A stretch of 64,000 nucleotides of DNA from Prauserella isguenensis (GTDB lineage Bacteria; Actinomycetota; Actinomycetes; Mycobacteriales; Pseudonocardiaceae): NCBI RefSeq assembly GCF_014191605.1, contig NZ_JACHWU010000002.1, positions 682,001 through 746,000 on the forward strand, given 5' to 3'. Position numbers and translations under genes: made by a program. Positions 16,348-21,947 of this stretch are shown piece by piece (the first letter of the stretch is position 1; each line of letters starts with the position of its first letter). Under the pieces are notes generated by a model. That model did not search any database. It saw only the letters and a list, made by a program, of their open reading frames with translations, and was not told where the DNA came from.

Positions 16348-17886
16348 ATGGCTGAGACGAACGAAACGGTGCTGGTGACAGGGGCGACAGGACATGTCGG
16401 CAGGCATGTGGTGGCCGGACTGCGGGACGTGGGGGTCCGGGTGCGGGCCCTGACGCGCGACCCGGCGGCGGCCGGCCTGCCGCCGGACGTCGAAGCGGTG
16501 CCGGGCAGCCAGCTCGAAGCGCCGGGCCTGCGGCGGCACCTCGATGATGTGTCGGCGGTCTTCTTCATGCTCCCCGGTTTCGACACCGACGCCCTCGCCG
16601 AGAGCGTGCGGGTCGTCGGCGACCACGTCGAGCGCGTGGTGCTGCTGTCCTCCGGCGCCGTGCACGACGGCGTGCCCGCTTCCGAACAGCCCGGGACCAT
16701 CGCGCACGCACACGCGGTGGTCGAGGAGGCGATCCGCGCGACCGGGGTGTCGTGGACGTTCCTGCGGCCCTACGGATTCGCGGTCAACGCGCTGGAGTGG
16801 GCGGAGTCGATCCGGTCCCGGCGGCCGGTCGAGCTGGTGCGACCCGAGGTGGCTGCGGCTCCGGTCGACGAACGGGACATCGCCGCCGTCGCCGTCCGCG
16901 CGCTCACCGAGGACGGTCACGACCGGGCGCGTTACGAGCTCACCGGTCCCGAGCTCCTCAGCCCGGCGCGGCAGTTGGCGATCGTCGGGGAGGTCACCGG
17001 CCGGGACATCGCGTGGCGGGAGCGGTCCGCCGAGGCGTGGGCCCGCACACTCCTCGGACCGGACACTCCGGACGAGGTGGTGGCCGGCATGGTGGCCGGG
17101 CTGAACGACCGACCCGGAGCCCGCACCGACACGGTCGCTCGGGTGACCGGCCAGCGCGCACACACGTACCGGGAGTGGGTCGAGGCGCACACCGAAGACC
17201 TCACCGGCCCGCTGCCACCGGTCTCGCGGAAGGACACCGGCCACGTCCTCGTCGCGACCTGGCGGGTCGCCGACGCCGGCTCCCAACGCGCGGCCGCGGC
17301 GGCCGCGATCGACGATTGGCGCGACCGCCCGTGGCCCTCGGGCCTGCTCGCCCATTCCGTGCTGCTCGGCACCGACGGCCACACACTGGTGCACTATTCA
17401 CAGTGGACCGACGAGGCGGCACTCGAGGACTTCCGCCGCAGCGGCTGCGGGGCCCGCAACGACGCGCTCGACGAGACGGTGCCCGGCATCGAACGGCTCG
17501 ACGCCGTCGGCTACCGGTTGTATCGCGAGGCGCTGCCCGAGCGGCCGTTCGAACCGGGCGCCGTCGTGCTCGTGTCGTTCCGCACCGACTCCGCCGCCAC
17601 GGGCGAACGGTTCGTCGACGAACTGCTGCTCCGGCACCCCGTGACCACCGGCGAGCAGTCGCCCGAGGGGATGGCGGGCAACCACTTCCACATCGCGGTC
17701 GACGGGAGCCGGATGCTCAACTGGGCGGAGTTCGCGACCGTCGAGGCGCACGAGCGTGTCGTCGCCGACCGGCTCCAGGCCGACGACGACGTCCCGCAAT
17801 TGGTGGAACGGACCGAGGGGCTCGAACCGATCGGTTTCCAGCGATTCGTGCCCTATCGCACCGTCTACGGTCCGCCCGCCGACTGA
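16348..17886 (+). CDS. NmrA-like NAD(P)-binding protein fused to tandem ABM-type domains
   Basis: Product of 512 aa. Residues about 6-280 are an NmrA/SDR Rossmann domain with G12-x-x-G15-x-x-G18 (VTGATGHVGRHV), LLSSGAVHDG, the FLRPYGFAVNAL segment and YELTGPELLSPARQLAIV; the canonical YxxxK pair is absent, as in atypical NmrA-like proteins. Residues about 295-390 (VLVATWRVADAGSQ, LLGTDGHTLVHYSQWTDEAAL) and 400-505 (VVLVSFRTDSAATG, DGSRMLNWAEFATVEAHERVV) each look like an antibiotic biosynthesis monooxygenase-type ferredoxin-like domain. It is divergent from the MATE gene. Possible redox or sensor function; the substrate is unknown. Confidence 0.8.
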   Translation: MAETNETVLVTGATGHVGRHVVAGLRDVGVRVRALTRDPAAAGLPPDVEAVPGSQLEAPGLRRHLDDVSAVFFMLPGFDTDALAESVRVVGDHVERVVLLSSGAVHDGVPASEQPGTIAHAHAVVEEAIRATGVSWTFLRPYGFAVNALEWAESIRSRRPVELVRPEVAAAPVDERDIAAVAVRALTEDGHDRARYELTGPELLSPARQLAIVGEVTGRDIAWRERSAEAWARTLLGPDTPDEVVAGMVAGLNDRPGARTDTVARVTGQRAHTYREWVEAHTEDLTGPLPPVSRKDTGHVLVATWRVADAGSQRAAAAAAIDDWRDRPWPSGLLAHSVLLGTDGHTLVHYSQWTDEAALEDFRRSGCGARNDALDETVPGIERLDAVGYRLYREALPERPFEPGAVVLVSFRTDSAATGERFVDELLLRHPVTTGEQSPEGMAGNHFHIAVDGSRMLNWAEFATVEAHERVVADRLQADDDVPQLVERTEGLEPIGFQRFVPYRTVYGPPAD

Positions 17887-18004
17887 GCCGCCGCCCGCCG
17901 GGCTCCGGCGCGCCGCTCGACCGTGTCACTACCGCGGCCGGGCCGGCCCCGCTCGCCCTGCCCGCAGCGTCCGGCGCGGGCAGGGCTCGCCTAGTCTTAC
18001 GCCG

Positions 18005-19045
18005 ATGTCCGAGTACGCGATTCTGATCCTGCCGTCGGCAAACCGGGTCTACACCGACACCTCGCCCCGCCTGCTGCAGGCCGAACTGACCGCGTTCGGC
18101 GACGCGGTGCTGTCCACGGAGGTGCGCGAGCCGGGTACGCGGTCGATCGGCGGCGCGTCCTACGTCACGTTCACCACCCCGGAACCGCTGACCGACGACG
18201 ACATCGCGCTGTTGTCGAACCTGTCGTCGGCCTACGTGCTGTTCGAACTCACCGGCGAGCTGCTCCGGCCGCTGCCGCTGTCGCCCGCCGACGTGTTCGA
18301 CTCGGACCTGCTGACGATCCAGAAGTACAGCGGCAAGACCAACGAGCTGTTCACCAAGCTGCTGCTGAACCTCACCGTGCTGGCCTCCGACCGGCCGCGC
18401 GGCGTGGTCGAGGGCGGGCTGCACGTGGTCGATCCGTTGTGCGGCAGGGGAACGACGCTCAACCAGGCGATGATGTACGGCTTCGACGCCACCGGACTCG
18501 AAACCGACGGCAAGGATTTCGAGGCCTACCAGCAGTTCATCAAGACGTGGCTGCGCACCAAACGTGTCAAACACAAGGCCGAGGCGGGGATGCTGCGCCA
18601 CCGGAAGGCCCGACTCGGACGCAGGCTGGACATCGAGTACGCCGCGTCGAAGGAGCGATACAAAGCGGGTGAGACGCGGACCCTCTCGTACCTCAACTGC
18701 GACACGCTGCACACCGACGAGTTGCTGCGCCCCGGGTCGGCCGACCTCGTGGTCACCGACGCGCCCTACGGGGTGCAGCACGGGAGCCGCACGCCGGACC
18801 GCGTGCCCGCGCGGAGCCCGCGAGACCTGCTCGCCGCGGCGGTGCCGGGGTGGACGCGGGCGTTGCGGCGAGGGGGCGCACTCGGGCTGTCGTGGAACAC
18901 GCACGTCGTGCCGCGGGACGAACTCGTCGACATTCTCGCGGGCGCCGGACTGACCGTCCGCGACGACGGCCCCTACGCGTCGCTGGCGCACCGCGTCGAC
19001 CAGGCCATCGTGCGGGACGTCCTCGTCGCGACGAAGGACCGCTGA
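18005..19045 (+). CDS. Trm11-like RNA/DNA methyltransferase (UPF0020 type)
   Basis: Product of 346 aa. The N-terminal half (residues 1-105) resembles a degenerate THUMP/ferredoxin-like region. The class I methyltransferase core begins with the SAM-binding motif D143-P-L-C-G147-R-G149-T (VVDPLCGRGTT) and the acidic LETD. The catalytic motif IV is D252-A-P-Y255-G, the (N/D)PPY-type motif of exocyclic amino methyltransferases such as Trm11/TrmN, which make N2-methylguanosine in tRNA. An insert of basic helices (KTWLRTKRVKHKAEAGMLRHRKARLGRR) follows motif I. ATG at 18005 is preferred; the open frame upstream overlaps the previous gene. Target RNA unproven. Confidence 0.8.
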   Translation: MSEYAILILPSANRVYTDTSPRLLQAELTAFGDAVLSTEVREPGTRSIGGASYVTFTTPEPLTDDDIALLSNLSSAYVLFELTGELLRPLPLSPADVFDSDLLTIQKYSGKTNELFTKLLLNLTVLASDRPRGVVEGGLHVVDPLCGRGTTLNQAMMYGFDATGLETDGKDFEAYQQFIKTWLRTKRVKHKAEAGMLRHRKARLGRRLDIEYAASKERYKAGETRTLSYLNCDTLHTDELLRPGSADLVVTDAPYGVQHGSRTPDRVPARSPRDLLAAAVPGWTRALRRGGALGLSWNTHVVPRDELVDILAGAGLTVRDDGPYASLAHRVDQAIVRDVLVATKDR

Positions 19046-19098: not shown

Positions 19099-21369
19099 GT
19101 GCCAGCATCGCGTTCCCGCCTGCGCCGGATCCGGATCCCGGCGGTGCTCACCGTCGTCGCCGTCCTCGTCGCGGCGGCGATCGTCACGTGGGCGCGCGTA
19201 CCGCGCGACGACCTGGAGGTCCTCGAGCCCGGCGGGTTGCGGGTCTCCCCCGGAACCCCGGCCGCCACCACCGCGGGCGGGGTGACGGTGACGGTCCACT
19301 CCGGCGGCCCCTCCGGTGCGGGAGCACGGGTCGTCGTCGAGACCGAGCACGCCGCGGTCTGGAGCAGCGATCCCGGCCACGCGTTCCTCGGCGCGGGCCG
19401 CGGCACCCTCGAGTCCGAAGAGGACCGCGGCCATCTCTGGGTCCGCACCGGCCACGACCACCGGTGGACCGGCCAGCGGCTCGACCGCGTGACCACGAAC
19501 GACCGCGGCGTCGTACTCACCGGGCGACTGGAGGATCTGGCGGGCACGCCGGGCCCGACCTGGCGCGCCGAGTTCACGGCCACCGAGCACGGGGTGAGGC
19601 TGGACGCACTGCTCGGCGGTGAGGGCGGCCCCACCTCGCTCGGGTTCTGGAGCGCCCGCGAGGGCCGGAGCGCGGTGCACGGGTTCGGCGAGCAGTTCAC
19701 CGATTTCGACCTCGACGGGCGCGTCCTGCCGGTCGTCATCCGGGAACAGGGCGTGGGCCGCGGGGAGCAGCCGATCACGGCGCTGGCCGACGTCACCAAC
19801 CACGGAGCGGGCGGCACGGAGGAGATGACCTATGCGGCCTGGGCGTCCTGGGTGACCGAGGACCTGCGCGGCGTCCGGCTGGACCCGACGCTGCGCACAT
19901 CGCACGCGCCGGCCGTGGCCGACACGACCGCCGAGGGGCGGGTCGGGCTGGAGATCAGGGCCACGCGGCTGCGCGCCGAGCTGGTCACCGCAGACACGCC
20001 ACTCGACCTCGTCGCCCGGCAGCACGCAGGGACCGACCGCCCCGCGCTCGCGGACTGGACCTCCGACGGTGCCGTCGTCGGCATCCAGGGCGGCACGGCG
20101 TCGGTCCGTCGGACGGTCGATTCGCTCCGGAGTGCCGGGACACGTGTCAGCGGCGTCTGGCTGCAGGACTGGACGGGACAGCGCACCACGTCCTTCGGCG
20201 ACCGGCTGTGGTGGACCTGGCAGCTCGACCGGAAGCGCTACCCCCGCTGGGAGGAGCTCGTCTCCGACCTCGCCGCCGACGGCATCACCGTGACCACGTA
20301 CGTCAACCCGTTCCTCGTCGATCCCGCGCGACAGCGCCCGGCGCCCGACCGGAACCTGTACGCCGAGGCAGCGGCCCGGGGATACCTGGTCACGACGGCC
20401 GGCGGCCGTCCGTACCCGCTCGACCAGGGCGACTTCGACGCCTACCTGGTCGACCTCACCGACGAGGCGGCCCGCGACTGGTACGCCGAGGTCATCGCCA
20501 CCGAGGTCCTGACCGACGGCGTCCGCGGTGCCATGGCCGACTTCGGCGAGGGCCTGCCCCTGGACGCGGTGCTCGCCGACGGCGATGCCGTCACGGCCCA
20601 CAACCGGTGGCCCGCGCTGTGGGCGGAGACCGTCCGGGACGCCTGTGAGCGCGCAGGCAAACCGGACTGCGTCACCTGGTTCCGCGCCGGATCGCTCGGG
20701 ATGGCCGCGGACGCCCCGATGTTCTGGAACGGCGACCAACTCACCTCGTTCAGCGCTCACGATGGGTTGGCGTCAGTGCTGCGCGGCACGTTCTCCGCGG
20801 GCGTGTCCGGCTGGCCACTGGTGCACTCCGACGTCGGCGGGTACACGTCGATCGACGCGGTCGTGAAGGACTACGTGCGCTCACCGGAACTACTCGCCCG
20901 CTGGGCGGAGTTGGCCGCGTTCGGGGTCATGATGCGCACCCACGAGGGCAACCGGCCCGCGGCGAATGTGCAGGTCAACGACGCGCGGGTGCGCAAGCAC
21001 TTCGCCCGGGCGACCCGGATCTACGCGGCGCTGGCCGACTACCGGCGCGAGGTCGTCGCCCATGCCACGGAGACCGGCGTTCCGGCGATCCGGCACGGGT
21101 GGCTGAACGTCCCGGGCACGGCGGCCGGCCGGGACGACGACCAGTTCTTCCTCGGATCGTCCGTCCTGGTCGCGCCGGTGATCACCGAGGGCGCCCGCGA
21201 GGTCGAGGTGACGTTGCCTCCCGGACGGTGGCGGCACCTGCTGACCGGGAAGGTCTACGACGGCGCCGCGACACGGACCGTCCCGGCGCCGATCGGCACC
21301 CCCGCGGCGTTCGTGGAGACCTCGGATCCGTGGGCGGATCGCCTCACCGACGCCGTGGCCTCCCGGTAG
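19099..21369 (+). CDS. GH31 glycosidase with sulfoquinovosidase signature, membrane-anchored
   Basis: Product of 756 aa from a GTG. Residues about 13-31 (IPAVLTVVAVLVAAAIVTW) form a signal anchor after an Arg-rich start, so the enzyme probably faces outward. The GH31 barrel has nucleophile D481 and E484 in MADFGEGLP and acid/base D546 in WNGDQ. The residues that bind the sulfonate in E. coli YihQ (Q288, R301, W304, Y508) have matching positions here: Q356 and R369 with the same 13-residue gap, W372, and Y582 in SDVGGY, 36 residues after the acid/base as in YihQ. This supports release of sulfoquinovose from its glycosides rather than a plain alpha-glucosidase. No sulfosugar catabolic genes are visible nearby. 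Confidence 0.85.
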   Translation: MPASRSRLRRIRIPAVLTVVAVLVAAAIVTWARVPRDDLEVLEPGGLRVSPGTPAATTAGGVTVTVHSGGPSGAGARVVVETEHAAVWSSDPGHAFLGAGRGTLESEEDRGHLWVRTGHDHRWTGQRLDRVTTNDRGVVLTGRLEDLAGTPGPTWRAEFTATEHGVRLDALLGGEGGPTSLGFWSAREGRSAVHGFGEQFTDFDLDGRVLPVVIREQGVGRGEQPITALADVTNHGAGGTEEMTYAAWASWVTEDLRGVRLDPTLRTSHAPAVADTTAEGRVGLEIRATRLRAELVTADTPLDLVARQHAGTDRPALADWTSDGAVVGIQGGTASVRRTVDSLRSAGTRVSGVWLQDWTGQRTTSFGDRLWWTWQLDRKRYPRWEELVSDLAADGITVTTYVNPFLVDPARQRPAPDRNLYAEAAARGYLVTTAGGRPYPLDQGDFDAYLVDLTDEAARDWYAEVIATEVLTDGVRGAMADFGEGLPLDAVLADGDAVTAHNRWPALWAETVRDACERAGKPDCVTWFRAGSLGMAADAPMFWNGDQLTSFSAHDGLASVLRGTFSAGVSGWPLVHSDVGGYTSIDAVVKDYVRSPELLARWAELAAFGVMMRTHEGNRPAANVQVNDARVRKHFARATRIYAALADYRREVVAHATETGVPAIRHGWLNVPGTAAGRDDDQFFLGSSVLVAPVITEGAREVEVTLPPGRWRHLLTGKVYDGAATRTVPAPIGTPAAFVETSDPWADRLTDAVASR

Positions 21370-21405: not shown

Positions 21406-21852
21406 TCACTCCTCGTCGGCGTCCTTGGCAGGCTTGTACGGATCGGGCTCGCCCGCCGGCTCGGCGGTCGTGGCCTGCCGAGCGACCTCGGCGTCGGCCT
21501 CACGCGCCTTGGCGAGTAGCTCGTCGATGTTGCGCGCCTCGGACGGGATGTTGTCCGCGACGAACGCGAGCGTGGGCGTGTACCGCACTCCCGTGCCCTG
21601 TCCCACCTTGGTCCGCAACACCCCGCGGGCGGATTCGAGTGCTGCGGCGGCACCGGCGAAGTCCGGCGCCGCGTCGAGAGTTTCGCCGAGCACGGTGTAG
21701 TACACGGTGGCGTCGCGCAGGTCACCGGTGACGCGGGCGTCCGTGATCGTCACGTTGCCCAGTCGCGGGTCCTTGATCTCGTGTTCGATCGCGGACGCGA
21801 CGACCTGTGCGATCCGCTTGGCCAGCCTGCGTGCCCGAGCCTTGTCAGCCAC
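21406..21852 (-). CDS. rbfA: Ribosome-binding factor A
   Basis: About 148 aa. RbfA is a KH-fold factor for late 30S maturation and 16S processing. Family segments: [50 protein letters not shown], then [28 protein letters not shown]. The charged tail ([14 protein letters not shown]) is typical of actinobacteria. The GTG at 21852 has GAGGGG six bases upstream; the ATG at 21858 is the alternative start. It follows the DUF503 gene and is convergent with the GH31 gene. Confidence 0.95.
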
Positions 21853-21947
21853 GGCCATCCCCTCACTCGTCCGAACGCCGGCACCTCACGACCCGGCGTA
21901 CCACCCTGTTGTTCCGGCCCGGCCACCCGACGTCGGCGACCCGGCCG

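Follow-up and report, generated by a model that had tools for sequence, protein, structure and literature searches.

The open reading frame at positions 19099-21369 (plus strand) of the window, i.e., the whole 64-kb stretch of DNA from the soil actinobacterium Prauserella isguenensis that was analyzed, encodes a YihQ-like GH31 glycoside hydrolase of 756 amino acids. Judged from its sequence, the protein is probably an exported, and probably also membrane-anchored, retaining alpha-sulfoquinovosidase (SQase), which would act on sulfoquinovose (SQ)-glycerol or SQDG outside the cell and could thus remove the sulfonated sugar head group from the sulfolipids of plants and algae. An earlier note on this DNA had treated it as a single odd protein; instead, it groups as one member of a broad clade of enzymes, most of them predicted to be exported, which lies apart from the presumed cytosolic SQases and has no common gene neighborhood.

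The gene starts with a GTG codon, and its GC content by codon position is coding-like. The protein belongs to GH31, as both catalytic domains scored above their Pfam cut-offs, namely the TIM-barrel domain PF01055 (residues 334-648, positions 20098-21042; 118.6 bits, cut-off 23.5) and the C-terminal domain PF21365 (residues 660-733, positions 21076-21297; 49.8 bits, cut-off 24.4). The NCBIfam model PRK10426 (YihQ), which NCBI names alpha-glucosidase, gave 692 bits at a cut-off of 553. A PDB search yielded 43 matching sequences, the top six of which (5ohy, 5ohs, 5aed, 5aee, 8r56, and 6pnr) scored 340-371 bits, and the seventh was the alpha-xylosidase YicI with 106 bits. Among proteins of solved structure, SQases are thus by far the nearest to it. 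According to the available part of PMC11968277, the first match, 5ohy, is the SQase of A. tumefaciens and the sixth, 6pnr, is SftG of E. rectale; both are of the same fold family as the protein described here.

An alignment to YihQ of E. coli (locus L003, PDB 5aed; 35-37% identity, same GH31 fold) brought the catalytic residues and those of the pocket, seven in all, into register. The Asp pair is formed by D481 (positions 20539-20541), which corresponds to the nucleophile D405, and by D546 (20734-20736), which corresponds to the acid/base D472. The five pocket positions, which in YihQ we take to hold the sulfonate and the SQ ring, are represented by Q330 (20086-20088; YihQ Q262), Q356 (20164-20166; Q288), R369 (20203-20205; R301, the putative sulfonate-binding Arg that is a Gln in one type of relatives), W372 (20212-20214; W304), and Y582 (20842-20844; Y508), all on the plus strand, and together they form an SQase-type pocket. 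The earlier note had already named YihQ-like catalytic residues together with Q356, R369, W372, and Y582, and the alignment bore this out, the Arg, Trp, and Tyr being in and not out of register; Q330 was added to its set. The sulfonate-recognition residues are described as highly conserved in SftG in the available part of PMC11968277. In 5ohy the two Gln positions are occupied by Lys and Glu, as in relatives from Shinella and Novosphingobium. The SQase residue set was absent, as aligned, from YicI, which shares the GH31 fold but reached at most 106 bits in the PDB search, and from a second GH31 protein encoded in the same genome (C9:63802-64824; locus L098:8071-10689). The gene of the latter adjoins genes for the TRAP transporter proteins DctM and DctP and, as recognized by eye, for a LacI-type regulator.

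Residues 13-29 (positions 19135-19185, plus strand) form a hydrophobic helix that is preceded by an Arg-rich stretch (residues 5-12). The mean hydropathy of this 17-mer is 2.85, while the maximum in YihQ is 0.61, and the first 60 residues do not contain a Cys. The helix predicts that the protein is exported or membrane-anchored. The signal-anchor helix proposed in the earlier note is thus present as an N-terminal hydrophobic helix, and its features fit an anchor and a cleaved signal peptide alike. The sequences also agree with the proposed difference from the cytosolic YihQ, as YihQ has no such helix and belongs to a different clade. Furthermore, YihQ is encoded in the yih cluster, whereas the gene described here lies between a methyltransferase-like gene and rbfA.

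From genome contigs, an alignment of four rows retrieved 75 loci, of which 71 were kept after the removal of L049, L078, and L079 (fragments or wrong frame) and of L082 (a distant GH31) before anything was counted. Together with the window, 67 of these loci form a clade of 68 rows, and the other four, all from Levilactobacillus, group with YihQ. In a quick tree of 76 rows, the clade was separated from YihQ and from the Levilactobacillus, Shinella, and Novosphingobium proteins with a support of 93, and in a tree built with more care from 44 of these rows the split between the exported and the presumed cytosolic SQases was supported at 100/100. The clade is called exported because an N-terminal hydrophobic 17-mer with a mean hydropathy of at least 1.3 was found in 38 of the 42 rows with Arg at position 369 and in 18 of the 26 rows with Gln, in contrast to none of the seven presumed cytosolic rows. 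Some of the 12 clade rows below 1.3 may fall short owing to the choice of the start, a break in the frame, or a fragmentary sequence, and others may truly lack the helix. When the called neighbors of the 71 loci and the window were clustered, no gene family was found to be common to the whole clade. Except for a family of short-chain dehydrogenases, seen at 10 loci, and a very broad cluster covering 24 loci, shared families were mostly confined to single genera, and two batches of neighbors analyzed with Pfam had mixed functions. Conserved neighbors were therefore rejected as a clue to the function.

Position 369 divides the clade into 42 Arg types and 26 Gln types. The other positions of the set hardly vary among the 68 rows (Q356, W372, and D481 in 68 each; Q330, D546, and Y582 in 67 each), and all 42 Arg types retain the two Gln, W372, and the two Asp, with Y582 present in 41. 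Part of the set (Q356 or R369 and W372) is built into the scan patterns, which bears on these counts; if only rows matching the pattern that lacks R369 are counted, the window included, 38 have Arg and 26 have Gln. Positions 215, 443, 444, and 609 also separate Arg types from Gln types. Three Arg/Gln changes are needed on the tree, and the Arg types do not form one clade, as three of them fall outside the actinobacterial group, which in turn includes one Gln type. Gln types were found in Pseudomonas, Myxococcales, Microvirga, Alcanivoracaceae, and others (e.g., L039:9824-12040, L044:9764-12025, L056:9911-12169, L080:2719-4926, and 22 more). Their existence argues against the SQase reading, since their pocket is almost the same and, as judged from the aligned sequences, the fold and the other residues do not fix the substrate. 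The Arg at position 369 may be what discriminates an SQase from a non-SQase. The score of the YihQ model does not discriminate between them: all four Gln types tested passed PRK10426 with 673-819 bits, and one of the four Arg types of the clade that were tested failed (L060, 512 bits). As the Arg is replaced by Gln in 26 of the 68 rows, a hit to the YihQ family alone does not imply an SQase; the protein described here has the Arg.

A set of 24 sulfo-pathway references was used to search for SQ catabolic genes, comprising sulfo-EMP from E. coli and putative sulfo-ED from Shinella, sulfo-SMO from Novosphingobium, and sulfo-TAL from Levilactobacillus. In the 64-kb window only the two GH31 (SQase) references matched at an E-value of 1e-3, both at the GH31 gene, and none of the 22 non-GH31 references did. 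An SQ catabolic cluster, which is usual for SQases without defining them, was thus not found at or near the gene, in agreement with the statement of the earlier note that sulfo-EMP, sulfo-ED, and sulfo-TK genes are missing nearby, as far as these references (sulfo-EMP, -ED, -SMO, and -TAL) cover them. The same was true for the clade: neither at the 67 exported loci nor in the window was any called neighbor at least 38% identical (E 1e-15) to a non-GH31 reference, only 41 of the 67 loci having at least 9 kb on both sides. All four Levilactobacillus loci were full of sulfo-pathway matches; three of these loci are a test of references that had been taken from the fourth. Weaker matches of 30-35% were present at 11 loci, including six in Pseudomonas with a YihU-like dehydrogenase and one in Nocardioides with a YihR-like protein. 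Hence, the available flanks of the exported clade do not contain a close sulfo-pathway gene, which, like the clade itself, is a new observation; it counts against the SQase reading. Outside this clade, a GH31 gene on a Novosphingobium plasmid that groups with YihQ (L085:12038-15680) was seen to overlap a gene annotated as long-chain-fatty-acid-CoA ligase; a putative gene for an SQ monooxygenase lies nearby.

Sulfo-EMP-like clusters were detected in two of the 17 genomes with an Arg-type exported enzyme that were probed, i.e., in Ruania albidiflava (L131:6974-17622) and in Actinomadura K4S16 (L130:319-13352), in both cases away from the exported gene. Both clusters encode a YihT-like aldolase (46-47%), an SLADH-like dehydrogenase (42-43%), a CsqR-like regulator (26-31%), a transporter with a binding protein, and a TauE exporter. 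The isomerase of the Ruania cluster is YihS (62%), and the Actinomadura cluster has an SQ-isomerase-like protein (27%) and a YihV-like protein (33%). The GH31 proteins within the two clusters have a YicI-like active site and lack the YihQ set as aligned; that of Actinomadura scored 455 bits with an alpha-xylosidase model (cut-off 606) and 218 bits with the YihQ model. In a third Arg-type genome, of Actinophytocola, a YihT-like protein (42%) was found, and its surroundings contained no other reference match. The available part of PMC8873060 describes actinobacterial sulfo-EMP clusters without an SQase gene, and therefore the exported enzyme could, by its sequence, fill the SQase step in Ruania and Actinomadura. 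Arthrobacter strains with sulfo-EMP were later found to use a GH188 SQase, according to the available part of PMC10755693, and thus Ruania and Actinomadura may do without the exported enzyme for this step. This NAD-dependent GH188 enzyme, SqgA, shares the proposed substrate class with the GH31 protein and differs from it in family and mechanism.

Two loci of the clade have neighbors with a possible relation to lipids. In Agrococcus baldri (L029:7292-12241), genes for an FAD-linked oxidase and a diacylglycerol kinase stand in line with the exported GH31 gene, which the kinase gene abuts directly upstream on the same strand, and in Microbacterium ihumii (L073:10204-14540) homologs of both are convergent with the exported GH31 gene. 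The kinase neighbors fit a glycerolipid substrate, albeit thinly. The one in Agrococcus would also be explained if the substrate was an alpha-glucuronoside, which is the main rival. Glucuronosyl diacylglycerols occur in some Actinobacteria, and the protein could be an exported alpha-glycosidase for a C6-anionic glucoside other than SQ, most likely alpha-glucuronosyl diacylglycerol or a glycerol derivative of it, with R369 binding the C6 carboxylate and with turnover of the cell's own or its neighbors' lipid as its role. The export, the kept Arg, and the lack of close sulfo-pathway genes in the available flanks would all follow from this. However, it is not the Arg alone but the whole pocket, with two Gln, Arg, Trp, and Tyr, that matches YihQ, and sulfo-EMP-like clusters do exist in the two Arg-type genomes named above, so that a glucuronoside is considered an unlikely substrate.

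Under the SQase reading, it has to be asked what happens to the SQ in this Prauserella. The earlier note had proposed a search of the genome for SQ importer and catabolic genes; the catabolic part was carried out with YihS, the SQ isomerase family, SQ monooxygenase, YihT, and the sulfo-ED dehydratase as genome-wide probes, and the first four gave no close match. YihS was not found at an E-value of 1e-3, in a search without a positive control. No member of the SQ isomerase family was found, while both Levilactobacillus controls were detected, though under the curated cut-off of the family. No protein resembling SQ monooxygenase was found at 1e-10, where the control was detected, and two matches of 28-29% appeared at 1e-6. 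For YihT only a 26% match was seen (the E. coli control lay outside the search). The fifth probe revealed two dehydratases of the IlvD family with 52 and 47% identity to the putative sulfo-ED dehydratase, one near an aldehyde dehydrogenase gene and a gene of the mandelate racemase family, the other beside a GntP gluconate permease gene. As no pair of SQ dehydrogenase and lactonase was recognized in their surroundings, a sulfo-ED pathway via these dehydratases was set aside. That the protein is an SQase and that this Prauserella nevertheless imports and breaks down SQ, through a pathway (or a variant of one) that escaped the probes, is quite improbable in view of these results, even though sulfo-TK, SQ-dioxygenase, GH188, and SQ transporters lie outside the probes and the similarity of the IlvD-family dehydratases speaks in its favor. 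It would also agree with an observation in other genomes: seven of the 17 Arg-type genomes (G004, G201, G202, G203, G205, G210, and G212), P. rugosa included, encode alkanesulfonate-monooxygenase-like proteins with 32-40% identity to the putative SQ monooxygenase of Novosphingobium.

For an exported SQase the following mode of action is suggested. The N-terminal helix would send the catalytic part across the membrane, where Q330, Q356, R369, W372, and Y582, the register of which was shown above, would hold the SQ ring and the sulfonate. D481 would then attack C1, with D546 as acid/base, and, as expected from the family, alpha-SQ would be freed from SQ-glycerol or SQDG, so that SQ would be detached from the glycerol or diacylglycerol part outside the cell. 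In the genomes with sulfo-EMP-like clusters (Ruania and one Actinomadura) the SQ could be imported and degraded. For Prauserella isguenensis the likeliest gain would be the glycerol or lipid part, with SQ left for neighbors, since no such route was found in it with the probes described above; this lipid-feeding step is based on the two loci with diacylglycerol kinase genes.

It is tempting to speculate further that bacteria with orphan SQases exposed on their surface make up a widespread guild, which strips SQ from sulfolipids outside the cell, uses the glycerol or lipid part, and releases the SQ as a public good to sulfoglycolytic neighbors, and that the exported Gln-type relatives exchanged the sulfonate-binding Arg for Gln and took to a non-sulfonated glycoside, so that counts of yihQ in genomes and metagenomes would mix two substrates; this is a tentative proposal that has somewhat less than an even chance of being right. 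An exported SQase in cells without a recognized pathway would mean that free SQ can arise extracellularly, with consequences for the question of who feeds whom. One published scheme (PMC11968277) has import of SQ-glycerol first and cleavage inside the cell. The difference between Arg and Gln matters in practice, because yihQ serves as a marker gene to recognize SQ-degrading organisms (available part of PMC13219744) and its annotation mixes the two types, as NCBI's YihQ model accepted the four Gln types tested. In the literature searched nothing was found that plainly deals with an exported GH31 SQase, although a paper on marine sulfoquinovosidases (PMC12780224) could already describe exported forms. 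Genomes related to Elstera that combine a GH31 SQase with an incomplete pathway are mentioned in the available part of PMC13372026.

The nearest named relatives are from Prauserella aidingensis (91%) and P. rugosa (72%, best segment), and the gene is present in three of seven Prauserella genomes. Its site is bordered on the left by a methyltransferase-like gene (17756-19045, plus strand; start uncertain, match to UPF0020/RlmKL weak), which is present in all seven genomes, and on the right by the convergent rbfA (21406-21858, minus strand). In the four genomes without the GH31 gene these two are adjacent, their aligned ends being about 230, 100, 80, and 1800 bp apart, which makes the GH31 gene accessory, with a single conserved site in Prauserella. 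The gap of about 1800 bp contains a gene for a DUF222 protein at the same site (L110:4374-5399). The P. aidingensis ortholog has a frame break near residue 54, after the export helix (L111, about 2264-2425), for which an assembly error is possible, and the reading frame is open in the window and in P. rugosa. At higher ranks, the gene was found in at least four of 200 genomes of the family, and the exported enzyme in at least five of 394 genomes of the class, both being lower bounds due to strict E-values and a limited scoring of candidates. That the protein is an ordinary exported alpha-glucosidase, in which the SQase residues are present by ancestry only and are perhaps being lost, would agree with this patchy presence, with the frame break in P. 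aidingensis, and with NCBI's name for the PRK10426 model, but it is very improbable, given that 42 rows retain the Arg across long branches, though it can be lost (26 Gln types, three changes), and that the frame is open in the window and in P. rugosa.

Among 394 class genomes, apparently one and the same sample in both searches, five had the exported enzyme and 44 a YihS-like protein (E 1e-100, a threshold that may admit other isomerases), without any overlap, which says little because only about 0.6 would be expected by chance; such counts are too low to speak for or against an association between the two. The nearest relatives outside of Prauserella in the trees are from Ruania and Aeromicrobium, and as both are placed in other families, a horizontal transfer of the GH31 gene is suggested.
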